From the NCBI RefSeq assembly GCF_029840635.1, contig NZ_JAOCCU010000029.1, forward strand, positions 1-64,000: a stretch of 64,000 nt of DNA. The letters run 5' to 3'. Below, piece by piece: positions 5,288 to 44,189 of the stretch. Positions within the stretch are counted from its first letter, which is position 1. Every line of letters begins with the position of its first letter. A program made the position numbers and the translations under genes. Origin of the DNA: Mitsuaria sp. GD03876 (GTDB lineage Bacteria; Pseudomonadota; Gammaproteobacteria; Burkholderiales; Burkholderiaceae_C). The notes beneath the pieces were generated by a model. It was given only the letters and a program-made list of their open reading frames with translations. It was not told where the DNA came from and did not search any database.

Positions 5288-5314
5288 CGCGTTGCCGATC
5301 AGATGGGCAACGCG
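5288..5314. terminator. Hairpin at the rimO 3' end
   Basis: Nine-base perfect stem CGCGTTGCC / GGCAACGCG with a nine-base loop. It overlaps the last rimO codons and lies between two convergent genes. Terminator-like in place but without a T-run. Confidence 0.3.
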
Positions 5315-6702
5315 ATCAGGTCGTGGCCTTCGGCGCCGACGATGCGGGCGCGGGTGAACTCGCCCACGCGCAGCTGCTTGCTGGCCTTCTCGGGCGGCAA
5401 CAGGCGGACGGTGCCGTCGATCTCGGGCGCGTCCGCGTACGAACGGCCGACGCCGCCCTTGCGGCCGAGCGCCGGCGCCGAATCCACCAGCACCTGCATC
5501 GTCGCGCCGATGCGGCGCTGCAGCTTGGCGATCGAGACCTCCTCGGCCACCGCCATGAAGCGCGCGCGGCGCTCCTCGCGGACCTCGTCGGGCAGCGCGC
5601 CGTCGAGCGCGTTGGCCGGCGCGCCTTCGATCGGCGAGTAGGCGAAGCAGCCGGCGCGGTCGATCTGCGCTTCGCGCATGAAGTCGAGCAGGTACTGGAA
5701 CTCGGCCTCGGTCTCGCCGGGGAAGCCCGCGATGAAGGTCGAGCGGATCACCAGTTCCGGGCAGATCTCGCGCCAGCGCAGGATGCGCTCGAGGTTCTTC
5801 TCGCCGTTGGCGGGGCGCTTCATGCGCTTCTGCACGTCGGGATGGGCGTGCTGGAACGGCACGTCCAGGTAGGGAAGGATGAGGCCCTCGGCCATCATCG
5901 GCAGGATCTCGTCGACGTGGGGATACGGGTAGACGTAGTGCAGGCGCACCCAGGCGCCGTAGGGCTTGGCGATCTCGCCGAGCTGCGCGACCAGGTCGAA
6001 CATGCGCGTCTTCACCGGCTTGCCGTCCCAGAAGCCGGTGCGGTACTTGATGTCGACGCCGTAGGCGGAGGTGTCCTGGCTGATGACCAGCAGTTCCTTG
6101 ACGCCGGACTCGAACAGCGCCTTGGCCTCGGACAGCACGTCGCCGATCGGGCGCGAGACCAGGTCGCCGCGCATGCTCGGGATGATGCAGAAGCTGCAGC
6201 GGTGGTTGCAGCCTTCGGAGATCTTCAGGTAGGCGTAGTGCTTGGGCGTGAGCTTGATGCCGGCGACGCCGCGGGCCTCGGGCACGAGGTCGATGAACGG
6301 GTCGTGCGGCTTGGGGACGTGGGTGTGGACGGCGTCCATCACTTCCTGCGTCGCATGGGGGCCGGTGACGGCCAGGACGCTGGGGTGGATCTCGCGGACC
6401 ATGTTGTCCGAGGTGGCGCCGGCCTTGGCGCCGAGGCAGCCGGTGACGATGACCTTGCCGTTCTCGGCCAGCGCCTCGCCGATGGTGTCCAGCGACTCCT
6501 TGACCGCGTCGTCGATGAAGCCGCAGGTATTGACGATCACCAGGTCCGCGCCGGCGAAGGTCTTGGAGGTCTCGTAGCCCTCGGCGCGCAGCTGGGTGAG
6601 GATCAGTTCGGAGTCGGTCAGCGCCTTGGGGCACCCGAGGGATACGAATCCTATACTCGGCGCCCGTTTCGTTGCGGCGGGCGTTTCAATCGTGTTTGTC
6701 AT
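5299..6702 (-). CDS. rimO: Ribosomal protein S12 methylthiotransferase RimO (5' end phage-derived)
   Basis: 467 residues. Radical-SAM enzyme that methylthiolates the conserved aspartate of ribosomal protein S12. Domains in order: N-terminal UPF0004 ([16 protein letters not shown], Fe-S cysteines), radical SAM with CNHRCSFC (residues about 167-174), and a C-terminal TRAM domain. The first roughly 20-25 codons differ from the host version: the original beginning (MESTTYDPSAAKQAAAPK then IGFVSLGCP) is found at 44189-44106, on the other side of the prophage. The gene is therefore a phage/host chimera joined in frame within 6629-6651. Its start codon is only 12 bp from the divergent integrase start, so its promoter must lie in phage DNA. 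No clear ribosome site is visible. Confidence 0.96.
6629..6651. other. Left attachment junction (attL) inside rimO
   Basis: On the minus strand this encodes GFVSLGC plus flanking bases. Aligned to 44110-44132 it is identical at 19 of 23 positions, and all four differences fall at third codon positions. Longest identical blocks are five bases, as expected for a serine integrase, which needs only a two- or three-base crossover core. The exact crossover point cannot be placed. Confidence 0.85.
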
Positions 6703-6714
6703 GGTGATGTCGAT

Positions 6715-8340
6715 ATGACCGGTCTGGTTTTCAGCTACCTGCGCTTCTCAGATCCCAGCCAGGCCGCCGGACACAGCGCGGAGCGGCAGACGGCCTATGC
6801 GGCCAGGTGGGCAGAAGAGCACGGCTTGCGCCTGGACGATTCTTTGACGATGCGGGACGAAGGTCTCTCGGCCTATCACCAGCGCCACGTCAAGGCCGGT
6901 GCGCTGGGTGTGTTCCTGGCCGCCATCAACGAAGGGAAAGTGCCTGAGGGCTCTGTGCTTGTCGTGGAAGGACTAGACCGTCTATCCCGAGCTGAGCCAC
7001 TCTTGGCTCAAGCACAGCTGGGCTCGATTGTAAATGCGGGCATCACAGTCGTCACGGCACAAGACGGGAAGGCCTACAGCAGGGACAGCCTCAAGTCGAA
7101 CCCCATGGACCTCATTTACAGCCTACTGGTGATGATCAGAGCCCATGAGGAAAGCGACACGAAAAGCAAGCGGGTGACAGCTTCGATCGTGCGCCTATGC
7201 AGAGGCTGGGTGGACGGAACCTATCGAGGGCGCATAAGGAATGGGAAGGATCCGCAGTGGGTGCGCGAAGCCGACGCGGGCTGGGAGCTGATACCTGATC
7301 GGGTTGAGGCCCTCAGAGAGGCGATCCAGATGTACATGGACGGCCTTGGCCCGCGAGACATCATCAGCAGGCTTCGAGAAGCTGGCCGTACGCCACTCGA
7401 CAACTACCTCGCGGCGACTCACCTGTACAAGCTGCTCAAGAACCCAGCACTCATCGGCACAAAAAGGCTCTCAGTGGGCGGCGAGGACTTTGAGCTGGTC
7501 GACTACTACCCGAGAGTGCTCTCGGACGCAGAGTGGTCCGAACTTGCGACGGTGGGTAGTCAGCGAGGACGCCGCGGCGCCAAGAGCGACATTCCTCACG
7601 TGATCACCGGCCTCGGCATCACCTACTGCGGATATTGCGGGCGAGCCATGTCGGGACAGCACCTCTTCGGCAAGATCAAGAAGCGAGGGGACAAGCTGAA
7701 GGACGGCTACCGAAGGTTGCTTTGCGCTGGCCTCTCGTACGGCAAGGGCGGTCGCTGCGCGTACCCGAAATCACGAAGCGTCGCCCCCGTGGAGAGGGCA
7801 ATCATGGCGCATTGCTCGGACATCCTAAACCTGCGAGCTCTGTATGGCGGCGACCAATCTGCACCGGTGAGGGCTGAGATCGCGAGGTTGCGAGCCGAGC
7901 TGGCAACTGTGGATAGCCAGATCGATCGGCTGATGTCCGCGATGCTGGATTCGGGCTCCGATGACCCACCGGCGGTCTTCACCCGGAAGGCGCGCGACCT
8001 CGAGGCCCAGCGCGAAAAAATCCAGGCTGGGCTGCAGGCTGCAGAGCATCGGCTCAGCACCATTGCTCGAAAGGATCTGGCGGGCTCAGACAAGCTCTGG
8101 AGAGACCTGGCGCGAGGGGTGCAAGACCTGGAGTACGACGCGCGTCTCAAAGCCCGTCAGCTCGTTGCAGACACGTTCGAACGTATCGTGGTTTACGCCA
8201 GCGGCATGCGGCCGGCCGAGACCAGCAATTTCATCGACGTCGTGCTCATCGCCAAAGGGGGCCGATCGCGACTTCTTCGGATTGACACGAAGGGCCAATG
8301 GATCGCCGGCGAGGACGTCGAGCTTGCGAACCTACCCTGA
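6715..8340 (+). CDS. Large serine recombinase (prophage integrase)
   Basis: 541 residues from ATG 6715. N-terminal resolvase domain with [18 protein letters not shown]: the Ser after YLRF is the likely nucleophile, and EGLDRLSR carries catalytic arginines. A recombinase domain follows (about 170-300), then a zinc ribbon (YCGYCGRAM, later CAGLS and RCAYP) and a C-terminal coiled coil (about 380-450), the layout of large serine integrases. It lies immediately beside the left junction, so it is the enzyme expected to have recombined into rimO. No separate directionality factor is recognisable. Confidence 0.95.
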
Positions 8341-8390
8341 TGGCGAGCTACACAACCAGGCCCTCAAGCTGCGCTAGGCCAGGAGCACCG

Positions 8391-14537: not shown

Positions 14538-15557
14538 TTACTCCCCGAGAGCTTCGCCGATCTCGTATGGCACGAAGTCGATGATCTGTTCGCCCACCCA
14601 ATCGTTCAGAGCTCGGAAGCGCGCCTGCAGCGGCTCGATCTCGTTGCGCGCGAAGACCTTCGCGGCCGGCAGCACGGCGCCGAATCCCCCGGTGTTGCCC
14701 GGCACGATGCCGAGCAACTGGGGCGGGATGCGATGAGCTGCTAGTACGTCGTCGCGACTCACGTTCTTGATGTTGAAGAACTCGTCCTTTGCGGCGACCT
14801 CGCTGACGGGGATGAGCTGCACGCCGTCCTTCTTCCCGTTGGGAGAGTAGAGGAACAGGTTGCGAAAGTTGCCCGGCCCCTTGCTGTCCTTCAGCGCCTG
14901 GCGGATCGCATCGATGTCCTCTTGCTGCTGCGCGGGGTCGCTGATGTACATGATGAAGCCGGCGTGCGAGCCGTTGTTGTAGTACCGGCGCCGGAACAGC
15001 GTCGCCGACTCGTTCAGCCAGGCGGCCTGCAGCGAGCTTAGGTACTCGGGCAGCCCGTACACCTCTTGGTTGATGTCGGCCTCGCGCATGTGGAACACGG
15101 AACCCCTCGGAAACTCGTGCTCGTCGCCCCATCGACGCACGAAGTGGTAGGTCTCCAGGTCCTCACCGCGGCGCACGTACTTCGCGAGCGCATGACGCAG
15201 CTCAAGCCCACGCCCCGTGAGCGATCTCGGCCGCTCCAAATAAGCGTTGCCAAAGATCAGGAAGTCCAGCACCAGCGCACCGAAGGTCTCGGCGCTGAGC
15301 AGCTTGTGCGGTTTGAACGTCGACACCAGGACGTTGCGCTTGAAGTAGATGCTGCTGCTGTGGTGCGTGCTGGCCCGGAAGCTCTTCGCGAGCCCTTCCC
15401 AGCTCACCGGCGGCTCGTACCACTTCCCCACGAGGCCGCACTCCAGATAATCGAGCAGATCCCGGTGATCCATCACCGGTACCGGATCGCCAAAGGTGAA
15501 CGCCTCGACGCGAGGCTCACGACGGCCCTGGGGTGCGGTCGCTTCAATCGTTTCCAT
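14538..15557 (-). CDS. Q: Phage portal protein (P2 gpQ family)
   Basis: 339 residues from ATG 15557, overlapping the terminase stop by one base; a GTG at 15560 is also possible. It forms the dodecameric portal through which DNA enters the head. Family features: YLECGLVGKWYEPPVSWEG, LIFGNAYLERPRS, YYNNGSHAGFIMYISD and RIPPQLLGIVPGNTGGFG. Normal length for gpQ. Operon with the terminase ATPase, transcribed leftward away from the scaffold-capsid operon as in P2. Confidence 0.97.
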   Translation of the reverse strand: METIEATAPQGRREPRVEAFTFGDPVPVMDHRDLLDYLECGLVGKWYEPPVSWEGLAKSFRASTHHSSSIYFKRNVLVSTFKPHKLLSAETFGALVLDFLIFGNAYLERPRSLTGRGLELRHALAKYVRRGEDLETYHFVRRWGDEHEFPRGSVFHMREADINQEVYGLPEYLSSLQAAWLNESATLFRRRYYNNGSHAGFIMYISDPAQQQEDIDAIRQALKDSKGPGNFRNLFLYSPNGKKDGVQLIPVSEVAAKDEFFNIKNVSRDDVLAAHRIPPQLLGIVPGNTGGFGAVLPAAKVFARNEIEPLQARFRALNDWVGEQIIDFVPYEIGEALGE

Positions 15558-17353
15558 CACGAGATCTCCATGATGCTGCGGCTCTGCAGCGTGAAGCCCT
15601 CCAGGGGCTCGTTGTCCAATGCATGCATGCAGGCCCAGGCCAGGTCTGCATGCCCTGTCTCTTCGCTGCGGCCCGCGTCATAGGTGACGCTGCGCCCGCT
15701 CGCCGTCAGGGTCCGGCGGATAGCAAGGAACGCGTGCGCCAGGTCGATCCAGCCCGCGTCGAACTCCAACCGGCCCTTGGCGATCACGCTCTTGGCCTTG
15801 AGCACCAGGCGCGTCTTCGTCTCCAGCGAGTAGTTGATCGCCTTCACCGCTGGGAAGAACTTCTGCACGATTTGATAGACGCCCTGCCCCAGGCCCGTCG
15901 TATCGATCCCGATGTGCTGCACGTTGAAGCGCTCGGTGATCTTGCGGATCGACTCGGCCTGCGCCTCGAAGTCCATGCCCTTGAACTGGTGGCGCTCGAG
16001 GACGCGGAACTTCCCACCAGGTGTGGCCGGCGGGGCAACGACGACGCACCCGGCGGTGTCGCCGGTGTGCGACGGGTCGTAGCCTACCCACACAGGCCGG
16101 TGGCCGAAGGGCCGCAGCGAGAAGGGCTTGACGTCGTCCCAGGCCTCCCAGCTGTCGACCATGCAGCGCTGCAACTCCGACAGCGGGAACACCGAATAGG
16201 TGTCGTCGATGAACCCGCACATCAGCAGGTTCTCGAACTCCTCGGGCGTGTACTCGAGGCGCAACTCATCAATGTCGAACAGGTCGCAGCCGCTGTTGGC
16301 GGCATCGATGATGTTGACGATGTTGCGCCAGACCTTGTCCTCGCCCGTGAAGCCACCGCCGCCCAGCCGGTCGTGGCTGAGGTCGAACGGCAAGCGCTCG
16401 TTCTTCGCGCGGCGCTTGTTGAACTTGTCTCCGCTCCAGTACTGGTAGGCCTCGTGCTGGATGGAACTGGGCGTGCTGAAGTAGGTCTTGCGGAACTGCT
16501 TGTGCATCGCCATGCCCGAGGCGACCTTGTTCAGCTCCTCGAAGCGGTGGGTCCAGAAGAACTCGTCGAAGTAGAAGTTGCCGTGGTAGCCCTGGGCGGT
16601 GCGCGCGTTGGTGCCTAGGAAGTAAATGTGGGCGCCGTTGGACAGCACGATCGGATCGCCGGCCAGCTCGACACCGCAAGACTCCGCAGCGAACTGCAGG
16701 ATGTACTGCTTGAAGATGTGCGCCTGCGCCTTGCTCGCCGACAGGAAGAGCTGATTGCGCCCCGTCTCGATCGCGTCCATCAGCGCCTCGCGGGCGAAGT
16801 ACCAGGTCGCGCCGATCTGCCGCGATTTCAGGATCTTGCGCGTGCGCTGGTGTCCATTGCGCAGCCACACCTTCTGATAGCCGAAGAGCGAGTCCTTGAA
16901 GGCCGACTGCAGCTTCTCGATCGCCTCCTCGCTGAAGTGGTTGCGCTCGGGCTTCTTCTTCGGCCCCTCGTTGCGGCGCTCGATGTTGGGGTTGAGGTCC
17001 GATTCCTTGCCGGTCTTCTCATACTTGCGCACTCGCGCCAGGCGCTCGACCTGACGGCCCAACAGGTCGATCTCCTTGAAGTCGCCGCCGGTCTTCTGGT
17101 CCTTGGCGATGAGCTGCACCAGGCGCGTCTCCAGCGCACCTTCGACGCGCTCGATGGGCTGCGCCTTGTCCCAGGCCTCGGCGTCCTTCCAGCCCTGCAC
17201 GGTCGAGCGCGGCTCCTCGATCCACTCGGCGATCGAGGACACGCGCCACCCCTGCCAGTAGAGGTGGCGCGCGGTGCGGCGCTTGTCTGCGTTGACGCCC
17301 TCGGCCGGCTTCTCACGTGAAGGCGGCAGGGCTTCGGCGGCTTGCGAAGTCAT
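15557..17353 (-). CDS. P: Terminase large (ATPase) subunit (P2 gpP family)
   Basis: 598 residues from ATG 17353 (MTSQAAEAL). It has an N-terminal HTH-like DNA-binding segment (WRVSSIAEWIEEPRSTVQGW), then the packaging ATPase with Walker-A-like ILKSRQIGATWYFA, acidic Walker-B-like FYFDEFFW, and a C-terminal nuclease-like domain beginning near VWVGYDPSHTGDTAG. Packages concatemeric or circular DNA into proheads with gpM and gpQ. Divergent from gpO. Confidence 0.97.
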   Translation of the reverse strand: MTSQAAEALPPSREKPAEGVNADKRRTARHLYWQGWRVSSIAEWIEEPRSTVQGWKDAEAWDKAQPIERVEGALETRLVQLIAKDQKTGGDFKEIDLLGRQVERLARVRKYEKTGKESDLNPNIERRNEGPKKKPERNHFSEEAIEKLQSAFKDSLFGYQKVWLRNGHQRTRKILKSRQIGATWYFAREALMDAIETGRNQLFLSASKAQAHIFKQYILQFAAESCGVELAGDPIVLSNGAHIYFLGTNARTAQGYHGNFYFDEFFWTHRFEELNKVASGMAMHKQFRKTYFSTPSSIQHEAYQYWSGDKFNKRRAKNERLPFDLSHDRLGGGGFTGEDKVWRNIVNIIDAANSGCDLFDIDELRLEYTPEEFENLLMCGFIDDTYSVFPLSELQRCMVDSWEAWDDVKPFSLRPFGHRPVWVGYDPSHTGDTAGCVVVAPPATPGGKFRVLERHQFKGMDFEAQAESIRKITERFNVQHIGIDTTGLGQGVYQIVQKFFPAVKAINYSLETKTRLVLKAKSVIAKGRLEFDAGWIDLAHAFLAIRRTLTASGRSVTYDAGRSEETGHADLAWACMHALDNEPLEGFTLQSRSIMEIS

Positions 17354-17499
17354 GAGCGCGAGGGTATGAGCGCGCGCGTGCATACGCGATGGATAGGGGC
17401 CCGCGCGCGGAGTTACCGGTCGCCGAGAAACCCGGAACGCGTTGATAGCAGGGCGCCCACCGAAGACGATGACGACACCAGCAACCTGCCCTGTTCGTC

Positions 17500-18373: not shown

Positions 18374-19384
18374 ATGCGCAACGAAACCCGCGTCGTCTTC
18401 AACTCGTACATGTCCCGCGTCGCCGCGCTTAGCTCGGTCGCCAACGCGGCGCACACCTTCGCCGTGGCCCCTTCTGTCCAGCAGACGCTCGAAAAGAAAA
18501 TCCAGGAAACCAGCGACTTCCTCAAGCGCATCAACATCATCGGCGTGGCCGAGATGCAGGGCGAGAAGCTGGGCCTGGGCATTTCGGGTCCGGCGGCCAG
18601 CCGCACCAACACCGCCCAGAAGGATCGCCAGACGCGCGATCTGACCGGCATCGACGCGACGACCTACAAGTGCGAGAAGACGAACTTCGACACGCACATC
18701 GGCTATGCGAAGTTGGACGCCTGGGCGAAGTTCGCTGAGTTCCAGAACATGATCCGCGACCTGATCGTGCAGCGCCAGGCCCTGGACCGCATCATGATCG
18801 GCTTCAACGGCACCTCCGTGGCCGCCGAGACTGACGTCGTCGCCAATCCGCTGCTGCAGGACGTGAACATCGGATGGCTGCAGCAGATGCGCGAGAACGC
18901 GCCGGCGCGTGTCATGGGCAAGGCCAATGCCCCGATCAAGATCGGCGACGCGCAGGATGCCGACTACAAGAACCTCGACGCCGCCGTCTACGACGCGCGC
19001 CAACTGCTGGATCCGTGGTTCCAGGAAGACCCGGGCCTGGTCGCCATCCTGGGCCGCGACCTGATGCACGACAAGCTGTTCCCGATCGTGAACAGCGACA
19101 AGGCGCCGACCGAGATCCTCGCCGCCGACGTCGTGCTGTCGCAAAAGCGCGTGGGCGGCCTGCCGGCGGCCACGGTGCCCTTCTTCCCACCCAATGCGAT
19201 CCTGATCACGCGCTTCGACAACCTGTCGATCTACTGGCAGGAGAGCGCGCGCCGCCGTCGCGTCGAGGACAACCCCAAGCGCGACCGCATCGAGAACTAC
19301 GAATCCTCGAACGACGCCTTCGTGGTGGAGGACTACGGGCGCGCCGCGCTGGTGGAGCACATCGAGATCGCCGAGGCCGCCTGA
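18374..19384 (+). CDS. N: Major capsid protein (P2 gpN family)
   Basis: 336 residues, normal for gpN. Recognisable stretches: MRNETRVVFNSYMSRVA, FLKRINIIGVAEMQGEKLG, DKLFPIVN, and the late RFDNLSIYWQESARRR. HK97-fold shell protein, processed by gpO near its N-terminus. Follows gpO by 37 bp. Confidence 0.97.
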   Translation: MRNETRVVFNSYMSRVAALSSVANAAHTFAVAPSVQQTLEKKIQETSDFLKRINIIGVAEMQGEKLGLGISGPAASRTNTAQKDRQTRDLTGIDATTYKCEKTNFDTHIGYAKLDAWAKFAEFQNMIRDLIVQRQALDRIMIGFNGTSVAAETDVVANPLLQDVNIGWLQQMRENAPARVMGKANAPIKIGDAQDADYKNLDAAVYDARQLLDPWFQEDPGLVAILGRDLMHDKLFPIVNSDKAPTEILAADVVLSQKRVGGLPAATVPFFPPNAILITRFDNLSIYWQESARRRRVEDNPKRDRIENYESSNDAFVVEDYGRAALVEHIEIAEAA

Positions 19385-29276: not shown

Positions 29277-29368
29277 ACAGCTCAGGAATGGATCGCACGA
29301 CTGTCTAGGTTGATCCGACGTCAGCAAACTCTTAAGTGCATGACTTAGCGCGACGCACCGCGCACATT

Positions 29369-29391
29369 GGCGGCTCCTTCTCGGAGCCGCC
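29369..29391. terminator. Hairpin upstream of the sheath gene
   Basis: Nine-base perfect stem GGCGGCTCC / GGAGCCGCC around a TTCTC loop, 55 bases before the sheath start. There is no T-tract, so it may be an mRNA leader structure rather than a terminator. Confidence 0.35.
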
Positions 29392-29446
29392 AGCACGTCA
29401 GGGTTTCGTCCCGGTGCGGGCTCCCCCTTCACCCCCAGGGAGCCCC

Positions 29447-30640
29447 ATGGCACTCGACTCCTACCACCACGGCGTGCGCGTCATCGAGATCAGCGACGGC
29501 GTCCGTCCGATCCGATCCATCTCCACCGCCATCATCGGTCTCGTGGGCACGGCCTCCGACGCCGACGCGGCGACGTTCCCTCTGAACAAACCCGCGCTGG
29601 TCACCAACGTCAACTCCGCCATCGGCAAGGCCGGCACGAAGGGCACGCTCGCCGCGGCCCTCGACGCGATCAGCCAGCAGTCCTCGCCCATCATCGTCGT
29701 CGTGCGCGTCGCTGACGGAGTCGGCGAGACCGCTGAAGCGAAGGCCGCCGACCAGGTCAGCAAGATCATCGGCACGACGCTGCCCTCCGGTCAGTACACG
29801 GGCATGAAGGCGCTGCTCGCGGCGCAGACCCAGCTCGGCGTGAAGCCGCGCATCCTTGGCGTCCCCGAGTACGACTCCGAGGAGGTGACAACCGCGCTGG
29901 TGGCGATTGCGCAGAAACTGCGCGCCTTCGCCTACGCCAGCACCGCCGGCGCCGAGACGATCGCCGAGGCGATCACCTACCGGGACAAATTCGGCGCGCG
30001 CGAGCTGATGCTGCTGCACCCCGAGTTCACGCGATGGGACACGACGACCAACGCGACGATCAGCGTTTCGCCGGTGGCCTACGCCCTAGGCCTGCGCGCC
30101 AAGATCGACCAGGAGGTCGGCTGGCACAAGACGCTGTCCAACCTGCCGATCAACGGCGTGACCGGCCTCTCGCGCGACATCTACTGGGACCTGCAGGAAT
30201 CCGCGACCGACGCCGGCCTGCTCAACGAGAGCGAGGTCACGGCGCTGATCAACGCGCAGGGCTACCGCTTCTGGGGCTCGCGCACCTGCAGCGATGACCC
30301 GCTGTTCGCCTTCGAGAGCGCCACGCGTACCGCGCAGGTCCTGGCCGACTCGATCGCCGAGGCCCACTTCTGGGCCGTCGACAAGCCGCTGCACCCGTCG
30401 CTGGTCAAGGACATCCTCGAAGGCGTCAACGCCAAGTTCCGGGAGCTGAAGAACTTCGGCTACATCCTCGACGGCAAGGCCTGGTACGACGAGGAGGCCA
30501 ACTCCGCGTCCTCGCTCAAGTCCGGCAAGCTGATCATCGACTACGACTACACGCCGATCCCGCCGGTGGAAGACCTCTCCTTCCGCCAGCGCATCACGGA
30601 CAAGTACTTCGCGGACTTCGCCGCGCGCGTCAACGCTTGA
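29447..30640 (+). CDS. FI: Tail sheath protein (P2 gpFI family)
   Basis: 397 residues from ATG 29447; the frame is open further upstream but this matches the family start. HHGVRVIEISDGVRPIRSIS, the mid GVPEYDSEEVT, and the C-terminal DYDYTPIPPVEDLSFRQRIT are diagnostic. Contractile sheath subunit. First gene of the FI-FII-E-T-U-D operon. Confidence 0.97.
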   Translation: MALDSYHHGVRVIEISDGVRPIRSISTAIIGLVGTASDADAATFPLNKPALVTNVNSAIGKAGTKGTLAAALDAISQQSSPIIVVVRVADGVGETAEAKAADQVSKIIGTTLPSGQYTGMKALLAAQTQLGVKPRILGVPEYDSEEVTTALVAIAQKLRAFAYASTAGAETIAEAITYRDKFGARELMLLHPEFTRWDTTTNATISVSPVAYALGLRAKIDQEVGWHKTLSNLPINGVTGLSRDIYWDLQESATDAGLLNESEVTALINAQGYRFWGSRTCSDDPLFAFESATRTAQVLADSIAEAHFWAVDKPLHPSLVKDILEGVNAKFRELKNFGYILDGKAWYDEEANSASSLKSGKLIIDYDYTPIPPVEDLSFRQRITDKYFADFAARVNA

Positions 30641-31650: not shown

Positions 31651-34257
31651 ATGGCAATGAGCGACCTGCGCCTGCAGGTGATCCTTCAGGCAATCGACCG
31701 CGCCACGGCGCCGCTGCAGCGCATCAACACCGGCAGCACGGCAACCGCCAAGGCGCTGCGGGAGACGCGCGAGCGCCTGAAGGAACTCGGCACGCAGCAG
31801 AAGGCGATCGGCGAGTTCCGCGAGATGCGGACCGGCCTGGGCGCCACCAGCGCAAAGCTCGAGAACGCGCGGGAGAAGGCTACCCGGCTGGCCCGCGAAC
31901 TCAGCCAGGCCGGCCCGCCTACCAAGGCCATGACGGCCCAGCTCGCCACGGCTCGCCAGTTCGCCCGCGATCTGGCCGACCAGCATCAGCGCCAGAGCGT
32001 GCAACTCCAGGCCGTCCGCGACCGGCTCAGCGCCGTGGGCATCAGCACCCGGGACCTCGCCACGCATGAGCGAGATCTGCGCTCGAGCATCGCGTCGACC
32101 ACCGAGAGCATCGGACGGCAGACGGCAGCGCTGCGCGAGCTGGCCGAGCGCCAGCGCCGCAGCGTCGCCGCCGGCGCGGCGCTGTCCAAGGCCCAGGCCC
32201 TGCAGGGCAAACTCACCGGCACCGGCGTCGCCATGGGCGCGACGGGCGCCGCGATCGGCGCCCCTATCGCGATCGCCGTGCGGGACTTCGCCTCGTTCGA
32301 GGACCACATGCTGGGCATCGCCCGCCAAGTACAGGGCGCGCGAGATGACGCCGGGCGGCTCACCCCCGTCTACGCCGCCGTCCGGCAGCAGATCCGCGAG
32401 CTGGGGCGAGAGATCCCCTTGGCGACCAATGAGATCGCGGACATGGTCACCGCCGGCGCGCGCATGGAGGTGGCGACGGATCAGCTCAAGGACTTCACCC
32501 GCACGGCGGCGATGATGGCGACGGCATTCGACGCGGTGCCCGGCGAGATTGCCGAGCAGATGGGCAAGGTCGCGAAGAACTTCAAGATCCCCATCATGCA
32601 GATCGAGGGCCTGGCCGACTCGATCAACTACCTCGACGACAACGCGATCTCGAAGGGCGACGAGATCATCAACGTGCTCAACCGGATCTCGGGGGTCGTC
32701 TCCACGGTCAAGATGAGCGCGCAGGACGCCGCTGCGCTGTCGTCCACGCTGCTCACGCTCGGCGAGCGCCCTGAGACCGCCGCCACCGCGATCAACGCCA
32801 TCACGCAGAAGTTGGCTGCCGCCACCAAGGGCACGAAGAAGTTCCAGGCCGCCGTCGACGAGATCGGCCTGAAGAGCAAGGACATCCAGCAAGGGATGGC
32901 GACAGATGCGTCGGCCACCTTCGACAAGGTGATCGCGGGCATCCGCAGGCTGCCGGAGAGCCAGCGCGTCGGCGTCATGGTCGAGCTGGTTGGCCTGGAG
33001 CACTCGGACACGCTCGCCAAGCTGGTCGACAAGCCCGAGGAGCTGGCGCGCCAGCGCGAGCTAGCGAACGGCACCGCGGCAAAGGGCTCCATGCGGCGCG
33101 AGGCGGACGCCCGCAGCCAGACGACGTCGGCGCAGTGGATCATGGCGAAGAACCGCGCCTTCGAGCTGACGACCACGCTCGGCGAGGCCTTGAAGCCCGC
33201 CCTGGTCGACATCATGACCACCTTGGGGTCCATGGCCTCGAAGCTGGCCGCCTTCGCAGCGGCCCACCCTGGCCTGGTGAGCTTCATTCTGAAAGCCGCC
33301 GCCGCCCTCTCCGTCCTTCTCGTGGTGGGCGGAACGGTCACGGTGGCACTGGCGTCGTTGATCGGTCCGTTCGCGCTGTTGCGCTACGGCATGGCGATGC
33401 TGAGCATCAACGGCGTCGGCGTGGCGTCCGTGATAGGGCGCATCGGCAGCGCGCTGCGCATCGCCGGTCAGGCGGTGCTCTGGCTCGGTCGCGCTCTCCT
33501 GATGACGCCCATCGGCCTGGCGATCACCGCGATCGCTGTAGCGGCCTTCTTGCTCATCCGCTACTGGGAGCCCATCAAGGCCTTCTTCGGCGGTGTGTGG
33601 AGCAGCGTCCGCGAGGCGTTCTCCGGCGGCATTGGCGGTGTGTCTGCGCTGCTGGTGAACTGGTCACCGCTGGGTCTCCTCTACCACGCGTTTGCCGGTG
33701 TGCTGCGCTGGTTCGGCTTCGACCTGCCGCAGAAGTTCAGCGAGTTCGGCGCCAACATCCTGCAGGGGTTGGCCGGGGGCATCACCAGCCGCCTGGCACT
33801 GGTCCGTGACGCGATCAGCGGGGCTGCAGACGGTGCGATTGGCTGGTTCAAGGAGAAGCTCGGCATCCGCAGCCCGAGCCGCGTCTTTATCGACGCCGGC
33901 GAGGAGATCTCGAACGGCGCCGCCGCCGGCGTCGCCAACCGGCAGGCCAGCGTCCGGCGCGCGGTGATGGCAATGGCCGTCGGCGCCACCGTGGCCATGC
34001 CTGCAGCCGCCATGAACGTATCGCCAGACGGCGACTTCTCCACCAGGCCCTCTACCGTCCACATGGACCGGCGGGCCCCGCTCTCGGCGCCGGCCGCTGC
34101 CGCGCCCGTGAGCGCCGGCGATAAGTACGAGATCCACATCCACGCCGCCCCGGGCATGGACGAGCGCACCCTGGCGCGGGTCGTCTGCGCCGAGCTGGAT
34201 CGGCGCGAGCGCACGAAGCTGGCGGCGCGCCGGTCCAGCCTCAGCGACATCAGCTAA
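31651..34257 (+). CDS. T: Tail tape measure protein (P2 gpT family)
   Basis: 868 residues. N-terminal coiled-coil region (about 25-180), the conserved TMP core SFEDHMLGIARQVQGARDD, membrane-like segments (about 535-640: AAALSVLLVVGGTVTVALAS; TPIGLAITAIAVAAFLLI), and a C-terminal region with IRSPSRVFIDAGEEISNG. Sets tail length and probably forms the DNA channel. Confidence 0.96.
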   Translation: MAMSDLRLQVILQAIDRATAPLQRINTGSTATAKALRETRERLKELGTQQKAIGEFREMRTGLGATSAKLENAREKATRLARELSQAGPPTKAMTAQLATARQFARDLADQHQRQSVQLQAVRDRLSAVGISTRDLATHERDLRSSIASTTESIGRQTAALRELAERQRRSVAAGAALSKAQALQGKLTGTGVAMGATGAAIGAPIAIAVRDFASFEDHMLGIARQVQGARDDAGRLTPVYAAVRQQIRELGREIPLATNEIADMVTAGARMEVATDQLKDFTRTAAMMATAFDAVPGEIAEQMGKVAKNFKIPIMQIEGLADSINYLDDNAISKGDEIINVLNRISGVVSTVKMSAQDAAALSSTLLTLGERPETAATAINAITQKLAAATKGTKKFQAAVDEIGLKSKDIQQGMATDASATFDKVIAGIRRLPESQRVGVMVELVGLEHSDTLAKLVDKPEELARQRELANGTAAKGSMRREADARSQTTSAQWIMAKNRAFELTTTLGEALKPALVDIMTTLGSMASKLAAFAAAHPGLVSFILKAAAALSVLLVVGGTVTVALASLIGPFALLRYGMAMLSINGVGVASVIGRIGSALRIAGQAVLWLGRALLMTPIGLAITAIAVAAFLLIRYWEPIKAFFGGVWSSVREAFSGGIGGVSALLVNWSPLGLLYHAFAGVLRWFGFDLPQKFSEFGANILQGLAGGITSRLALVRDAISGAADGAIGWFKEKLGIRSPSRVFIDAGEEISNGAAAGVANRQASVRRAVMAMAVGATVAMPAAAMNVSPDGDFSTRPSTVHMDRRAPLSAPAAAAPVSAGDKYEIHIHAAPGMDERTLARVVCAELDRRERTKLAARRSSLSDIS

Positions 34258-37352: not shown

Positions 37353-37724
37353 ATGAACTCCGACCCGAAGCAGCGGCTGTACTCGCGAGCTGTCCTCGAT
37401 GCGTCGAACTCCTACGCCGCGCGGGTCCGCGAGCTGCGCGCCATGCGCCTGAGCTTGGACCTGTTCGAGCCCGACCTGGCGGCGCTGGAGAAGCGTCGCA
37501 TCGCGCCGCAGCCTGAGCAGATTCGCTGGATCCCGCTGCCCGCTTCGCTCTCGATCCACATGGGTTGCCGAGATGACGCGAACCGCCTGCACGCTGCGCT
37601 GCTCGAGCTGGGCTATACGGAAGTGTTCCGGGAAGACTTCGTTGGCGGAATCAGCCTGGTCGCGGTTGCCAAAGGCGCTGTGCGCATCAGCGTCAGCGTT
37701 TATCGCCCGAGGGACGCCGCGTGA
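37353..37724 (+). CDS. Hypothetical phage protein
   Basis: 123 residues: NSDPKQRLYSRAVLDASNSY, a helical middle and a beta-rich end (ISLVAVAKGAVRISVSVY). Overlaps the primase-helicase start by four bases, so it belongs to the replication operon. Not recognised. Confidence 0.55.
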   Translation: MNSDPKQRLYSRAVLDASNSYAARVRELRAMRLSLDLFEPDLAALEKRRIAPQPEQIRWIPLPASLSIHMGCRDDANRLHAALLELGYTEVFREDFVGGISLVAVAKGAVRISVSVYRPRDAA

Positions 37725-40459
37725 ACCAGGCAGAGCTGGCGGATCGCGTTGAGGAGCTGCGCAAGGCAGTTCTGCAAGAGCTGCGCGAGTTCGGGTTCAA
37801 GGATGCGAACAGCGGGGGATGGATGCGCAAGGGCGAGTGCCCTTCCTGCAAGAAGCGGGAGCTGTACATCAAGGAGGACAAGCCATGGATCGTGCGCTGC
37901 GGACGGCTCAACAACTGCGGCTACGAGGCCCATGTCAAGGACCTCTACCCGTTCCTCTTTAACGACTGGAGCAAGCGGGCCGAGCCGATGAAGGCCACGA
38001 ACCCGAACGCCGCCGCAGACCTGTACCTGCAGCAGGCGAGAGGCTTCGACCTGTCGTTCATCAAGGGCTGGTACACGGAGGAGAGCCACTACGACCGCCA
38101 GGCCGACAACGGGAAGGGCGCTGGCAGCGCCACCGTGCGCTTCGCTGTTGGCACCGGGCATTGGGAGCGTCTGATCGACCGGCCCTCCCGCTTCGGCAAG
38201 AAGAAGGCCATGTTCAAGCCGGGCATGAGCTACCAGGGCACCTGGTGGTGCCCGCCCAACTTCGTTCCCGCTGAGGCGGACGAGTTGTGGATGGTCGAGG
38301 GCATCTTCGATTCCATCGCGCTCGGCCACAGCGGCGTTAACGCGGTGGCGCTGATGAGCTGCAACAACTACCCCGAACTGGCGTTGGAGCAGCTGCGCAA
38401 GGACTGCGTTGCGACGGGCCGCGGTTTGCCGCGCCTGGTTTTCGGCCTCGACGGCGACCACGCCGGCCAGGCATACACGCTCAAGCACGTCGAGCGCGCG
38501 CGGCAGGACGGTTGGACCTGCGAAGCGGCCCAGATCCCCCAGCCCGCTCGCGGCAAGGTGGACTGGAACGATCTACTGCTGCGCGACCGTCTCAAGCCTG
38601 AGGACTTCAAGGAGTACCGCCATCACGGCGCGCTGTTGATCGCGCCATCCGCTGGCGAAAAGGCTCTGGAGACCTACCGCCACTCGGGCGGCCAGAAGAC
38701 TGAGTTTGACGTCGCGTTCCGCAAGCGCCTGTACTGGTTCAAGCTAGACCTGGAGGCGTTCGACCGCGCGGTGCGCACGATCGAGGACGGCAACGAAGGC
38801 CGGCTGAGCGAGGAGGAGATCCGCGAAGAGGCGCTGAAGAAATCGCACAACATCAGGCCGATCGCCAACTGCCTGCCCTCGCCGCTGTACTACCAGCGCA
38901 ACGCTCTCACGGACGAGAGCTGGTACTACTTCCGCGTGGAGTTTCCGCACGACGCGCCGGCGGTGAAGAACACTTTCACCAGCTCGCACCTCAGCGCGGC
39001 GGCGGAGTTCAAGAAGCGCCTGCTGCACCTGGCGCCTGGCGCGGTCTTCACCGGCACGAGCCAGATGCTCGAGCGGATGATGGAGCGCCAGCTCTTCAAC
39101 ATCCAGCGCGTCGAGACGATCGACTACATCGGCTACTCGCGGGAGCACGGCGCCTTCGTCCTCGGCGACACCGCCGTGAAGGATGGCCGGCTGTACGAGA
39201 TCAACGCCGAGGACTACTTCGACATGGGCAACCTGTCGCTGAAGTCGCTCAACCAATCCGTCCAGCTCACCATTAACCGCGACCTGGCCGACTACAACGC
39301 GGATTGGCTGGGCTTGCTCTGGAACTGCTTCGGCGCCAAAGGTCTGGCCGCCCTCACCTTCTGGCTCGGCGCCCTCTTTGCCGAGCAGATCCGCGCCACG
39401 CAGAAGTCCTTCCCGTTTCTGGAGATCGTCGGCGAGGCCGGCGCCGGCAAGTCCACGCTGATCGAGTTCCTCTGGAAGCTGTGCGGCCGCCGCGACTACG
39501 AAGGCTTCGACCCGAGCAAGTCCTCGCTGGCCGCGCGCGCTCGCAACTTCGCTCAGGTCAGCAACCTGCCCGTGGTGCTGATCGAGTCGGATCGCGAGCG
39601 CCTGGGCAGCGAGAAGGGCCCGCACGTGAAGTCGTTCGATTGGGACGAGCTCAAGACCGCCTTCAACGGTCGCAGCGTGCGCGCACGCGGTATGGCGACC
39701 GGCGGCAACGAGACCTACGAGCCGCCGTTCCGGGGCGCCATCGTGATCAGCCAAAACAACGAGGTCAACGCCTCCGACCCGATCCTGCAGCGGATCGTCC
39801 ACCTGACCTTCGACAAGTCGCGCCAAACGCCCAAGACGCGTCAGGACGCAACAGCGCTGGAAGGCATGCCGGTGGAGGACGTCAGCGGTTTCATCCTTCT
39901 CGCCGCGCAGCGCGAGGAGCAGATCTTGAAGACGCTGGCCGAGAGGACGCCGGTCCATGAGGTCGCGCTGCTCGATCACCCTCAGGTGCGCAGCACCCGC
40001 GTTGCGAAGAACCACGCTCAGCTCCTCGCTCTCGCCGATGCGCTGCTGCACGTGGTCCCGCTGAGCGAGGAGCAGCACCAGGCGCTGCAGGTGCAGATCG
40101 TGGTGATGGCGACAGAGCGTCAGCAAGCCATCAACAGCGATCACCCGCTGGTGCAGGAGTTCTGGGAAGCCTTCGAGTACCTGGACGGCGGCAATGCGCC
40201 GCTGAACCACTCGCGCAAGCCCGACGAGGAAATCGCGATCAACCTGAACCACTTCATCCAGGTGGCGCGCGAGCGCAATCAGCAGGTGCCATCGATCGGC
40301 GACCTGAAGAAGGTGCTGAAGACCAGCCGCCTACACCGGTTCAAGGACATCAAGAACGTCAACAGCGCCATCCGGGGCCAGCTCGACGAGCAACGAGACG
40401 TCCGCTCCGTCGCCGTGCATTGCTGGACCTTCGAGCGCAACAAGGCTGCCAAGGCTTGA
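37721..40459 (+). CDS. Primase-helicase (zinc ribbon, TOPRIM, AAA/DUF-type helicase)
   Basis: 912 residues from GTG 37721. The N-terminal zinc ribbon CPSCKKRELYI...CGRLNNCG (about 40-67) is followed by a TOPRIM core with LWMVEGIFDS (Glu) and FGLDGDHAGQAY (Asp-x-Asp) around residues 190-250. A C-terminal ATPase has Walker A GEAGAGKSTLIEF (about 570) and Walker B-like VVLIESD. It would prime and unwind DNA at the phage origin. P2 itself uses the unrelated HUH protein gpA, which I do not find here. Confidence 0.85.
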   Translation: MNQAELADRVEELRKAVLQELREFGFKDANSGGWMRKGECPSCKKRELYIKEDKPWIVRCGRLNNCGYEAHVKDLYPFLFNDWSKRAEPMKATNPNAAADLYLQQARGFDLSFIKGWYTEESHYDRQADNGKGAGSATVRFAVGTGHWERLIDRPSRFGKKKAMFKPGMSYQGTWWCPPNFVPAEADELWMVEGIFDSIALGHSGVNAVALMSCNNYPELALEQLRKDCVATGRGLPRLVFGLDGDHAGQAYTLKHVERARQDGWTCEAAQIPQPARGKVDWNDLLLRDRLKPEDFKEYRHHGALLIAPSAGEKALETYRHSGGQKTEFDVAFRKRLYWFKLDLEAFDRAVRTIEDGNEGRLSEEEIREEALKKSHNIRPIANCLPSPLYYQRNALTDESWYYFRVEFPHDAPAVKNTFTSSHLSAAAEFKKRLLHLAPGAVFTGTSQMLERMMERQLFNIQRVETIDYIGYSREHGAFVLGDTAVKDGRLYEINAEDYFDMGNLSLKSLNQSVQLTINRDLADYNADWLGLLWNCFGAKGLAALTFWLGALFAEQIRATQKSFPFLEIVGEAGAGKSTLIEFLWKLCGRRDYEGFDPSKSSLAARARNFAQVSNLPVVLIESDRERLGSEKGPHVKSFDWDELKTAFNGRSVRARGMATGGNETYEPPFRGAIVISQNNEVNASDPILQRIVHLTFDKSRQTPKTRQDATALEGMPVEDVSGFILLAAQREEQILKTLAERTPVHEVALLDHPQVRSTRVAKNHAQLLALADALLHVVPLSEEQHQALQVQIVVMATERQQAINSDHPLVQEFWEAFEYLDGGNAPLNHSRKPDEEIAINLNHFIQVARERNQQVPSIGDLKKVLKTSRLHRFKDIKNVNSAIRGQLDEQRDVRSVAVHCWTFERNKAAKA

Positions 40460-40472
40460 ACGGGAGGGAATC

Positions 40473-40646: not shown

Positions 40647-40653
40647 GGACGCC

Positions 40654-40851
40654 ATGGTCAAGCCTGTGCTCAACAAGCCCTACACGCCTTGGCACGCTAC
40701 CGACGTGCGCCAGGCCTTCGAGCTTGAGCGCCAGCGGATCGCCAGAGAAGCATCCGATCGGTTGAACCAGTCGTTCGGCGCCGCTCTCGCGGTCGCTTTG
40801 GTCGACGCGGCGCGAGCCAGCTCCGTCAGTGCGCCGGGAGCTAAGCCGTGA
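40654..40851 (+). CDS. Small phage protein
   Basis: 65 residues, GAGGAC before the ATG. VKPVLNKPYTPWHATDVRQA, then a helical segment rich in Arg and Ala. Overlaps the next start by four bases. Unrecognised. Confidence 0.5.
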   Translation: MVKPVLNKPYTPWHATDVRQAFELERQRIAREASDRLNQSFGAALAVALVDAARASSVSAPGAKP

Positions 40852-41144: not shown

Positions 41145-41154
41145 AGGAGGCCCC

Positions 41155-41589: not shown

Positions 41590-41594
41590 CCCCC

Positions 41595-42299
41595 ATGAAG
41601 AACATCGTCCTGCTCTCCTATTCGGGCAACGCCGGCAAGACCACCCTGGCCCGCAACCTCTTCGCGCCACGCATCCCTGGCGCGCTCCTGGCCTCGGTGG
41701 AGAGCATCAACGCCGATGGCAAGGAGGACGTGACGCTGCGCGGTCGTCAGTTCACCGAGCTGCTCGACGTGGTCGCCATCAGCGACAACGGCGTCGTCGT
41801 CGACGTCGGCGCCAGCAACGTCGAGGACTGGTTGCAACGCCTGTCCCAGACCCGGCGATCGCACCAGCTCTTCGATGCGTTCATCGTGCCGGTGATGCCG
41901 GGCGCCAAACAGATCCGTGACGCGATCGCCACGATCGACGCGCTGTCGCAGATTGGCGTGCCGTCCGACAAGGTGAAGGTCATCCTGAACGGCCTCGAGG
42001 CGACCGAGACCGCCGCAACGGCCTTCGCCCCGCTGCTGGCCTACCTGGAGGAAACGAAGCGCGGGAGCGTTGTCCAGGGCCACATCAGCGACAGCGAGGT
42101 CTATGGCCGCCTGGCGGCGTCGGGCCAGACGATTGCTCAGGTCGTGATGCAGGACTTCGGCCAGCTCGAGCTGGCCCGCAAGAGCGCGAAGTCGCCCGAC
42201 GAGCGCCTGGCTGTCGTCCGCGCGATCGCGACGCTCGGCATGGCCGAGTCCGCGCAAGACGAGCTGGACCAGGTCTGGGCTGGCCTGGCTCAGGCGTAA
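41595..42299 (+). CDS. StbB-like ParA/MinD-family ATPase
   Basis: 234 residues. MKNIVLLSYSGNAGKTTLAR has a deviant Walker A (GNAGKTT). DNGVVVDVGASNVEDWL corresponds to Walker B and DAFIVPVMPGAKQIRDAI to a downstream ParA-type segment. This matches StbB/MobD-type ATPases of broad-host-range plasmids rather than classical ParA. Expected to act with the StbA-like protein in maintenance or localisation of the element. Confidence 0.78.
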   Translation: MKNIVLLSYSGNAGKTTLARNLFAPRIPGALLASVESINADGKEDVTLRGRQFTELLDVVAISDNGVVVDVGASNVEDWLQRLSQTRRSHQLFDAFIVPVMPGAKQIRDAIATIDALSQIGVPSDKVKVILNGLEATETAATAFAPLLAYLEETKRGSVVQGHISDSEVYGRLAASGQTIAQVVMQDFGQLELARKSAKSPDERLAVVRAIATLGMAESAQDELDQVWAGLAQA

Positions 42300-42318
42300 G
42301 GCATCGGAGGGAGAGAAC

Positions 42319-42804
42319 GTGTCCAAGACCAACAAGAGCCGCGCTCCCTCGCGCGGCCTTCCCAACAATTCCGTCGCGCACGCCGTGGCTCGCAACACCA
42401 TGCGCAGCCACGCACGAAGCGTCGGCATCGTGATCTTCTTGACCCAGGACGGCGACCATGCGAAGGGGCTGCTATCGCACCTGACCTGGATCATCGGCAT
42501 GGGCGCCGAGATCGCGCTGCAGGTCGTGGAGGGCAGCGTCACTGCCCGGCGCCAGCACACCGTACTGCGCAACCTGGTTCAGCTCGCGATTGCTGACTGC
42601 CGCTGGCGAGCCGACCTGGCGGAGCCGATCTGGGCTGCAGTGGAGGAAGCTCGCGACTTGATGATGGCCCACCCGAACGCTGCGGTAGTCGCGGTGGCCG
42701 GTGCCGATTTCCTGTCCGCCCGAGTGCGCAGCGGCACCGTTCGAATGGACGACGTCGCCGGCGCGGAGATCTACCAGGTCACGCCATTGGAGCTGGCGGC
42801 ATGA
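42319..42804 (+). CDS. StbC-like protein
   Basis: 161 residues from GTG 42319 with GGAGGGAGAG upstream. RTMRSHARSVG-like basic N-terminus (SVAHAVARNTMRSHARSVGI), then helical VTARRQHTVLRNLVQLAIAD. Gene order after an StbB-type ATPase suggests StbC, a poorly characterised plasmid protein. Sequence-level recognition is weaker than for StbB. Confidence 0.5.
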   Translation: MSKTNKSRAPSRGLPNNSVAHAVARNTMRSHARSVGIVIFLTQDGDHAKGLLSHLTWIIGMGAEIALQVVEGSVTARRQHTVLRNLVQLAIADCRWRADLAEPIWAAVEEARDLMMAHPNAAVVAVAGADFLSARVRSGTVRMDDVAGAEIYQVTPLELAA

Positions 42805-43004
42805 AGCGCGAAGTGATCGAGTGGCAGGAGCTGCCGCAGGACGGCATGCCCGATGCCGAAGTGACCGTGTTGCTGAGCACTGCCGAAGCGGGCGTGGACT
42901 CCGGCTTCTTCGACGGCGTGGAATGGCGCTGGTGCGAGAGCGGTGGCGTTGTCGCCGAGCCGGTGCAGGCTTGGGCCGTCGTTCCCAAAGGGATAGTCGA
43001 ATGA
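42801..43004 (+). CDS. Small phage protein, DUF551-like pattern
   Basis: 67 residues: VIEWQELPQDGMPDAEVTVL, FFDGVEWRWCESGGV and VQAWAVVPKG. The Trp-rich pattern (W..LP..g..VL...W) is that of DUF551-type phage proteins. Overlaps both neighbours by four bases. Confidence 0.55.
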   Translation: MKREVIEWQELPQDGMPDAEVTVLLSTAEAGVDSGFFDGVEWRWCESGGVVAEPVQAWAVVPKGIVE

Positions 43005-43228
43005 ACGCTTTCGATCGGAACTACGTCGGTCAGATCGCCAGCATGGCTATGACCCCCAAGGGGCGCCAGGCATCAGCGGCGTCTGGCAAGGCCAGTGCTC
43101 GCGTCGCCGCCATGCGAGCCTCGGACGACCCGTATCAACGTGCACTTGCGTCGGGATGCATCCCGGGTCTCGGGATCCGCGCTGACGCGTCGAAGACAAG
43201 TCGAATCCTAAAACCGGCCAACCTTTGA
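43001..43228 (+). CDS. Small phage protein
   Basis: 75 residues: MNAFDRNYVGQIASMAMTPK, then Ala/Ser/Arg-rich, ending PGLGIRADASKTSRILKP. No family recognised; position in the operon and coupled start support coding. Confidence 0.45.
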   Translation: MNAFDRNYVGQIASMAMTPKGRQASAASGKASARVAAMRASDDPYQRALASGCIPGLGIRADASKTSRILKPANL

Positions 43229-43235
43229 AACACCC

Positions 43236-43481
43236 ATGATCGGAGATCAAGAACAGGGCGCCATCGAAGGTGTCGTCATCACGGCGATATCCCATCAGGG
43301 CCTCACCGTCTCGATAGACGGAAAGCCAGGGCGACTTGCAGTGCTGACCGAAGACGGTCACGTGATCGCAGAAGGAGATCGCGTCGCGCGAGAGGCTGAA
43401 GCGGTGGCCGTGAATGCCTATCGCGAGATGCTGCAAGGACGAGGACATATGCGCGTTGTCGGCGCGCCCCTGCCTCGCTGA
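43236..43481 (+). CDS. Small phage protein, last gene of the rightward operon
   Basis: 81 residues: AIEGVVITAISHQGLTVSID and LAVLTEDGHVIAEGDRVARE, a small beta-rich fold. Not recognised. Followed at once by a terminator. Confidence 0.5.
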   Translation: MIGDQEQGAIEGVVITAISHQGLTVSIDGKPGRLAVLTEDGHVIAEGDRVAREAEAVAVNAYREMLQGRGHMRVVGAPLPR

Positions 43482-43505
43482 GTCGCCCCCTCCTGCAACA
43501 AGAAG

Positions 43506-43528
43506 GGCCCGCATCTGCGGGCCTTTTC
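43506..43528 (+). terminator. Intrinsic terminator at the end of the early/Stb operon
   Basis: GGCCCGC / GCGGGCC stem with an ATCT loop, then TTTTCTC. Also usable in reverse because AAG precedes the stem, so it separates the operon from the convergent gene at 43567-44079. Confidence 0.78.
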
Positions 43529-43566
43529 TCTTCTGATTTCCCTGGTCGTCGCAGAGCGGGGAGGCC

Positions 43567-44079
43567 CTACAAAGGAAGCTGTGTCCGTGAGAACAACTCG
43601 TGCATCCGCCTCACCAACGCAGAGAGCTGTTCGTTGTAGGTCTGCACCCGGCCAAGCTTCAGAACCGGCTGTCCCGCGTCTTGAATAAGCTTGATGCCGT
43701 CATGCTCTGTCGCAACGTCCCTGCCATCGAGACCCAGGGTAAACGGGTTGTGCAGGATCTTGTTTCGCATCGGGGCGGCGGCGATTGCGTCGGCCCAGAA
43801 TTCAGACCATTCATCGGCCAACTGAGCGTCTTTGACATGCGCAGCCATCAAGACATCAGCGCGTTGGCACCGAGCCTTGAAGAGCAACTTGGAGGACCGC
43901 AAACGATCCGCAGGTGCCTCTAACTTCTCGACCACCACGTAGGCGGCCCATTCAACCTGCGCAAAGAAGTAGGCTACCCAGCCCAGGGCGTCAAACCAGT
44001 AACCGGTTTCGGTATGCCCATAGATCATGTAGCCCTTAACTGGGGGCTCAGGACCCAGCATGACGTCGGGAAAGGCCAT
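43567..44079 (-). CDS. Hypothetical protein with HEPN-like RNxxxH motif
   Basis: 170 residues. Helical; TETGYWFDALGWVAYFFAQV and WAAYVVVEKLEAPADRLRSS precede PMRNKILHNPFTLGL, whose R-N-x3-H spacing fits the HEPN ribonuclease signature. It lies alone at the right end, transcribed leftward, adjacent to the attachment junction: a classic place for phage cargo. Whether it is a HEPN toxin or defence protein is inference. Confidence 0.5.
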   Translation of the reverse strand: MAFPDVMLGPEPPVKGYMIYGHTETGYWFDALGWVAYFFAQVEWAAYVVVEKLEAPADRLRSSKLLFKARCQRADVLMAAHVKDAQLADEWSEFWADAIAAAPMRNKILHNPFTLGLDGRDVATEHDGIKLIQDAGQPVLKLGRVQTYNEQLSALVRRMHELFSRTQLPL

Positions 44080-44105
44080 CTGTCGGATGGTATAGAACTC
44101 TTGGC

Positions 44106-44189
44106 TTAAGGGCAGCCGAGCGAGACGAAGCCGATCTTGGGCGCGGCAGCCTGCTTGGCGGCGGAGGGGTCGTAAGTCGTTGATTCCAT
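44106..44189 (-). pseudogene. rimO: Displaced original 5' end of host rimO
   Basis: Twenty-seven codons starting ATG 44189: MESTTYDPSAAKQAAAPK followed by IGFVSLGCP and then a TAA formed with phage sequence. The last nine residues are identical to RimO residues in the rejoined gene at 6702-5299. It is the host's own rimO start, cut off by the prophage; removing 6.6-44.1 kb restores an uninterrupted gene. Confidence 0.93.
44110..44132. other. Right attachment junction (attR)
   Basis: 23 bases matching 6629-6651 at 19 positions, with every difference synonymous in the rimO frame. The host side lies to the right of it. Confidence 0.85.

Follow-up and report, generated by a model that had tools for sequence, protein, structure and literature searches.

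The stretch analyzed here (the window) comprises the first 64,000 nucleotides of contig NZ_JAOCCU010000029.1 of Mitsuaria sp. GD03876. It contains rimO as a rebuilt gene, the native rimO start as a stranded fragment, and, between the two crossover points that separate them, a prophage of ∼37.5 kb (positions 6633 to 44114). The rebuilt rimO (5299 to 6702, minus strand) encodes 467 amino acids (aa) with the Pfam domains UPF0004, Radical_SAM, and TRAM_2, which identify the target gene as rimO and not dusA. The ATG and first 23 codons of this gene (6634 to 6702, minus strand) are supplied by the phage and are unlike the rimO starts of all 15 relatives from the same genus. The native start lies at the opposite end of the element (44106 to 44189, minus strand), where 27 codons are followed by a phage-supplied TAA. 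The prophage is very probably a temperate P2-like phage that carries a large serine integrase and is inserted in the 5' end of rimO.

When the flanks are joined in silico at the TG core, the result is an open rimO of 469 codons with a native N terminus, starting MESTTYDPSAAKQAAAPKIGF, and excision is predicted to restore the native gene. rimO is uninterrupted in 15 of 15 same-genus relatives, all of other species; it begins with MESTTY in 14 and with MSDTSV in one (L015), and MTNTIE begins none of them. The gene in L015 adjoins an apparent counterpart, judged by eye, of the window's upstream gene. Over 66 bases around the junction, identity to these relatives is 52 to 64 bases for the joined sequence and 47 to 54 for the rimO side left unjoined. 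Among the named loci compared, the window RimO is closest to those of a Pelomonas metagenome-assembled genome (MAG) (88%, Sphaerotilaceae) and of Comamonadaceae, in keeping with a host among the Burkholderiales. An earlier note on this DNA had claimed that a prophage inserted within rimO, stranded the native start, and rebuilt the 5' end of the gene from a start of its own. The junctions, the in silico join, and the relatives, none of which has a phage-type N terminus, bear out these claims. The note had also described two matching 23-bp regions at the ends of the element; counted by eye, they are identical at 19 of 23 positions, and all four differences fall at synonymous third positions.

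The integrase gene, int (6715 to 8340, plus strand, 541 aa), is divergent from rimO, with 12 bp between the two ATGs. The product matches Pfam Resolvase (5.1e−11) and Recombinase (1.9e−8), both above the cutoff, and Zn_ribbon_recom at 2.5e−4 (21.8 bits, below the cutoff of 25.3), and its PHROG annotation is integrase. It thus has the domain combination (Resolvase, Recombinase, and zinc ribbon) and the size (about 450 to 650 aa) by which large serine recombinases were recognized. The catalytic serine motif of these enzymes is YxRxS. The window integrase carries YLRFS, and Y8, R10, and S12 are invariant in nine aligned integrases. It is 52.4% identical to the integrase (gp1) of Burkholderia phage JC1 over 99% and 47% identical to the integrase of Xanthomonas phage Rb1. 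The integrase of P2 itself is a tyrosine integrase, whereas the gene at the attachment site in the window encodes a serine integrase; not every other open reading frame (ORF) was scanned for a tyrosine integrase.

Recurrence of integration at rimO

An alignment of the nine integrases was compared with the contigs of one genome for each of 84,980 species, and the best 80 of 100 relatives were kept. At 54 of these 80 loci, rimO is restarted beside int on the opposite strand. The arrangement is not found at the other 26, which include one locus with too little sequence (L066) and one (L085, Aromatoleum) that is, by eye, a rimO with a frameshift at the core. At every one of the 54 rimO loci, an ATG lies in frame 10 to 23 codons ahead of the SLGC Ser without an intervening stop. 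The gene is intact at 49 of them and runs off a contig end at the other 5; none is broken. The hosts are Beta- and Gammaproteobacteria, one Acidithiobacillus, and one Verrucomicrobiota MAG. Of 399 genomes in the family to which the window belongs, 26, counting the window's genome, have an integrase match, and many of these matches are weak. On the integrase tree (79 rows, after 7 short rows were dropped), the rimO target needs 12 changes versus 21.5 with shuffled labels, so rimO targeting is clustered yet has been gained or lost several times.

A probable dual-coded attachment site

Junctions on the rimO side and on the stub side (that of the stranded native start) were paired, which gave 43 pairs from 42 genomes, the window included, and 42 pairs after reduction to one per genome. 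Six of 48 stub candidates had been dropped: three were the rimO side itself, one was unrelated, one was too short, and one had no rimO-side row. Of the 52 genomes searched, 3 yielded no stub, and locus L104 stands outside the stub set. A strict set of 29 pairs, used below except where noted, comprises pairs whose two ends share a contig, together with the window and G090; in it, the second G429 stub replaces the first. Offsets are numbered from the first base of the Ser codon in SLGC.

All 29 phage halves carry the motif GTRTAG at −14, and none of the 29 host halves does. Among its bases, T at −13 occurs in 29 phage halves versus 1 host half (P = 2e−15), and A at −10 occurs in 29 versus 3 (P = 3e−13). 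A mirror motif, TAWA[CG] at +29, is found in 24 of 29 phage right halves and in no host right half (0/29), and both arms are equidistant from a TG at +9. In the window, the left arm GTATAGG (6650 to 6656, minus strand) lies within the rimO frame, where it provides codons for S-I-G, and the right arm CTATAC (44090 to 44095, minus strand) is an exact mirror of GTATAG about the TG core. The TG dinucleotide itself lies at 6632 to 6633 (minus strand) on the rimO side, as the first two bases of the Cys24 codon, and at 44113 to 44114 (minus strand) on the stub side. The Cys of SLGC is presumably an iron-sulfur ligand of RimO.

With high confidence, we therefore interpret the left half of the phage attachment site (attP) as dual coded: it appears to be at once a conserved integrase half-site and the coding sequence for a RimO N terminus of the form S/R-I/V-G-x-V/I-S-L-G. 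The earlier note had proposed conservation of the protein and not of the DNA. That the phage half encodes the protein stands, but the DNA is conserved as well; since GTRTAG is kept in all phage halves and no host half, the third-position differences from the host belong to the dual-coding half-site.

These observations suggest a mechanism. The phage serine integrase would recombine at TG, the first two bases of the SLGC Cys codon. The attP is an imperfect palindrome, GTRTAGG - 17 bp - TG - 17 bp - CTAWAC, adjoining int, with its first arm inside the reading frame and both arms probably bound by the integrase. Its left half unites the probable integrase half-site, an in-frame ATG, and a RimO N terminus, and because of this dual coding rimO is open again after integration, with a phage N terminus. 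The native start is left at the far end, where its reading frame often, as in the window, runs directly into a stop codon of the phage right half. The junctions, empty site, reading frame, attP motif, and recurrence are all legible in the nucleotide sequence.

Uninterrupted attP sites in free phages have the same structure. Viral contigs were searched likewise, with the best 80 of 170 relatives kept; 38 have too little sequence, 18 run on into rimO, 13 have a stop and were taken as free sites, and 11 lack SLGC. Together with phages JC1 and Rb1, these 13 contigs provide 15 attP sites that are uninterrupted, of which 13 are distinct. All 15 have the left arm and encode a RimO-like start in frame, 11 of 15 have the right arm, and the reading frame stops after the core. 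In Rb1 (PQ569993), the DNA upstream of int contains the left arm and encodes NPSIAMISLGCPKK in the same frame.

Points against the interpretation and alternative explanations

Several points weigh against this interpretation. The same-genus relatives are other species and not sister strains. TG is shared in 29 of 29 pairs partly by construction, because recognition of the loci relied on SLGC, whose Cys is TGY, and recognition of the stubs on a pattern that includes TGY. The nearest mismatches, at +8 on the left of TG in 24 of 29 pairs and at +11 on the right in 6 of 29, are independent of that pattern, and they place the crossover on the first two bases of the Cys codon; G at +8 occurs in 24 phage halves versus 2 host halves and in 0 of 15 same-genus relatives. 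The statistical tests treat related phages as independent, although one row per distinct left half (39 pairs) gives the same result. A sensitivity run without G434 and G441, in which the "stub" is another phage start, retained 40 pairs with 39 distinct left halves. The right arm is absent in 5 of 29 pairs and in 4 of 15 free attP sites. GTRTA near int is not enriched in the 25 loci not scored as rimO (6 of 25 versus 4.1 expected by shuffling, one of the 25, L085, being itself a frameshifted rimO site), so it is unconfirmed as an integrase motif outside rimO and disfavored as a motif general to the whole integrase family.

The expression signals of the rebuilt gene also count against it. No Shine-Dalgarno match of at least 4 nucleotides (nt) precedes the window's phage ATG, and the only sigma-70-like match that points at rimO lies 325 nt upstream, inside int. 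A Shine-Dalgarno match was found in 12 of 41 loci by a script that took the nearest ATG, often an internal one. Promoter and ribosome-binding-site scans of the rebuilt rimO thus gave nothing convincing, and its expression is uncertain because it has no clear Shine-Dalgarno sequence or promoter. Replacement of the rimO promoter, as had been claimed for the window, follows from the anatomy of the junction, but the scans did not find the new promoter. The rebuilt RimO is nonetheless predicted to be expressed and active.

The best-surviving alternative is that integration turns rimO off or down and that the in-frame phage start is a by-product of the resemblance of attP to the bacterial attachment site (attB). 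The absence of a clear ribosome-binding site or promoter is in keeping with this, as are the rimO frameshift at the core of L085, seen by eye, and a dusA element whose new signals are weaker than the native ones, as described in passages of PMC8409611. We regard it as unlikely, since the stop-free in-frame ATG at 54 of 54 loci and the intact state of rimO wherever the gene is complete (49 of 49) argue for selection to keep it functional.

Far less probable is that the phage half derives from the rimO of another host, captured by imprecise excision, with differences that are neutral under selection on the protein alone. The phage half does encode IGFVSLG in frame, and in 56 rows the third positions +2 and +5 are free (commonest base 38% at each) while the first and second positions from 0 to +7 are 73 to 100% fixed. 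However, in the same rows the third positions −13 (T in 55/56) and −10 (A in 56/56) are nearly fixed, which neutral divergence would not bring about. Ile and Val codons ending in A make up 63 of 2,685 in the host part of rimO (40 loci) but 42 of 42 at the arm, and the residue before I/V, which is Lys in 35 of 40 hosts, is replaced by Arg or Ser in all 40 phage halves. That the two rimO starts are an assembly or duplication artifact without any integration is scarcely credible: the window genome is a draft of 94 contigs, but a single contig contains both junctions and the phage modules that separate them, 28 of 41 stub candidates in relatives lie on the same contig as int (22 of these 31 to 54 kb away; one of the 28, in G441, is a second phage start and not a host stub), and JC1 integration was mapped experimentally according to passages of PMC9144972. 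Integration with a dual-coded attP left half remains the interpretation followed below.

The stranded start and the prophage genes

A stop codon immediately follows SLGCP in the stub in 20 of 42 genomes, or 13 of 29 within the strict set; all 20 codons at this position that begin with T are stops. The stop state changes 11 times on the tree (39 rows). The rule is not absolute, as one free attP, L164, has TGT at this codon. The pattern suggests that there may be selection for ending translation of the stub.

A right-end phage ORF (43567 to 44079, minus strand, 170 aa) is codirectional with the stranded start and begins 26 nt after the stub stop. It has no Pfam family above the cutoff and no PADLOC or PHROGs match, and a defense role for it was set aside on the Pfam and PADLOC results. 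Its RNKILH resembles a HEPN motif, by eye only. A general takeover, in which the host rimO promoter drives the phage right-end gene, was rejected, because, among 42 genomes, the first ORF of at least 90 aa beyond the stub shares the stub's direction in 21 and has the opposite direction in the other 21. In the window itself, takeover of this ORF is left open by its orientation and its distance from the stub stop. Insulation of the right end by terminators was likewise rejected as a rule: of 42 right ends, 5 (forward) and 8 (reverse) have a hairpin followed by T residues within 250 bp, compared to 5 and 6 of 208 control windows, and terminators at the right end are a tendency.

Between the junctions, Pfam and PHROG matches identify genes for a portal (14538 to 15560), terminase (15557 to 17383), major head protein (18374 to 19384), tail sheath (29336 to 30640), tape measure (31651 to 34257), and primase (37721 to 40459). 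The P2-like label is our reading of gene order and families, among them Terminase_5/6, phrog_68 (portal), phrog_70 (major head), and phrog_23 (sheath). GC content tends to be lower inside the prophage than in the flanks. ARAGORN found no tRNA in the window.

Comparison with known systems

The integrases of dusA elements are tyrosine recombinases, and the integrase of the integrative and conjugative element (ICE) SXT is a tyrosine integrase. dusA systems further differ from the window element in their target gene, and SXT differs in being conjugative. The likeness lies in what happens to the target. According to passages of PMC4482086 and PMC8409611, dusA-specific integrases and islands target an RNA-modification gene at its 5' end and provide a new one, and replacement of the 5' end, with a new N terminus and promoter, has been demonstrated (PMC8409611). 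SXT likewise replaces the 5' end of a translation gene, prfC, and brings a new promoter and N terminus, as cited in PMC8409611.

The closest published case is Burkholderia phage JC1 (Lessievirus, OM283127), which, in passages of PMC9144972, integrates in the rimO 5' end with an in-frame phage ATG. The window element shares with it a homologous large serine recombinase (both are in the integrase tree), an attP beside and just upstream of int, the rimO 5' site, and the phage start codon. JC1 is a podovirus, however, whereas the window element carries P2-like structural genes, and the overlap of the JC1 attP with attB is 18 bp long with a single difference, compared to 19 of 23 matching positions here. 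The passages of PMC9144972 at hand describe no dual coding, TG core, arms, or post-stub stop. A Variovorax prophage with a serine integrase at rimO is tabulated in PMC9658991, and rimO of Polaromonas naphthalenivorans CJ2 is named as a reported mobile-element target in PMC4482086, both as seen in extracts of these papers. Phage Rb1 is alike in its integrase and in an attP with an in-frame RimO-like peptide and a left arm; rimO is its presumed target, judged from attP.

Replacement of a 5' end is thus not new in kind, because JC1 does so at rimO and other elements do so at dusA and prfC. What is added here is dual coding across the family and a crossover in the Cys codon; among the titles and abstracts covered by our literature search, we recognized no description of dual coding in the attP of a serine integrase.

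These features offer a possible reason for the use of a ribosome-modification gene as a docking site across many genera: the crossover lies in a codon that cannot change, and the phage brings a replacement start. The site illustrates in simple form how the attP of a serine integrase can be subject to two constraints simultaneously, and the naturally varied attP/attB pairs with a defined TG core are a resource for integrase work. For genome data, an in-frame GTRTAG before SLGC together with Arg or Ser in place of the host Lys offers a rule to flag rimO lysogens, and in annotation an odd rimO N terminus and a short rimO stub tens of kilobases off should be read as one element. A wider proposal is tentative, and we hold it to be rather doubtful as a whole: rimO integrases would form a widespread family whose constrained attP holds a half-site, an enzyme start, and a crossover at an invariant Cys in one sequence, often with a stop that silences the stub, and lysogeny may set RimO dosage through the replaced transcription and translation signals, with int 12 bp away on the other strand, so that S12 methylthiolation would report the prophage state.

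Other elements in the family

At L085 (Aromatoleum), the apparent frameshift in rimO, located by eye, is of one base and lies just upstream of int; this is possibly a natural rimO-off lysogen. Extra phage-type rimO starts occur at L256 and L257 (G441) and L255 (G434), in genomes that already have an integrated element, which suggests tandem or second elements at the rimO attachment sites of G441 and G434. At L260 (G449, with L138) and L254 (G447, with L135), the stub lies ∼3 and ∼9 kb, respectively, from a truncated int, and rimO is still rebuilt, which suggests that decayed prophages keep the phage rimO start.

In a sister integrase branch (L086, L093, L081, and L108; four tree rows in one clade with support of 100), int lies directly downstream of a thiamine pyrophosphate (TPP)-riboswitch-like sequence, and such a sequence is likewise found upstream of int at L040 and L041. 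The RF00059 match has an E value of 3.6e−6 in L086 and is weaker in the five others, with scores below the gathering score in all six, and there is none in L143. thiC is not beside int; it is on another contig in five of the six genomes with a ThiC match and 1.1 Mb from int in the sixth, so the far-end neighbors of these elements were not found. In these elements, phage int may have come under a host riboswitch that is altered by integration.

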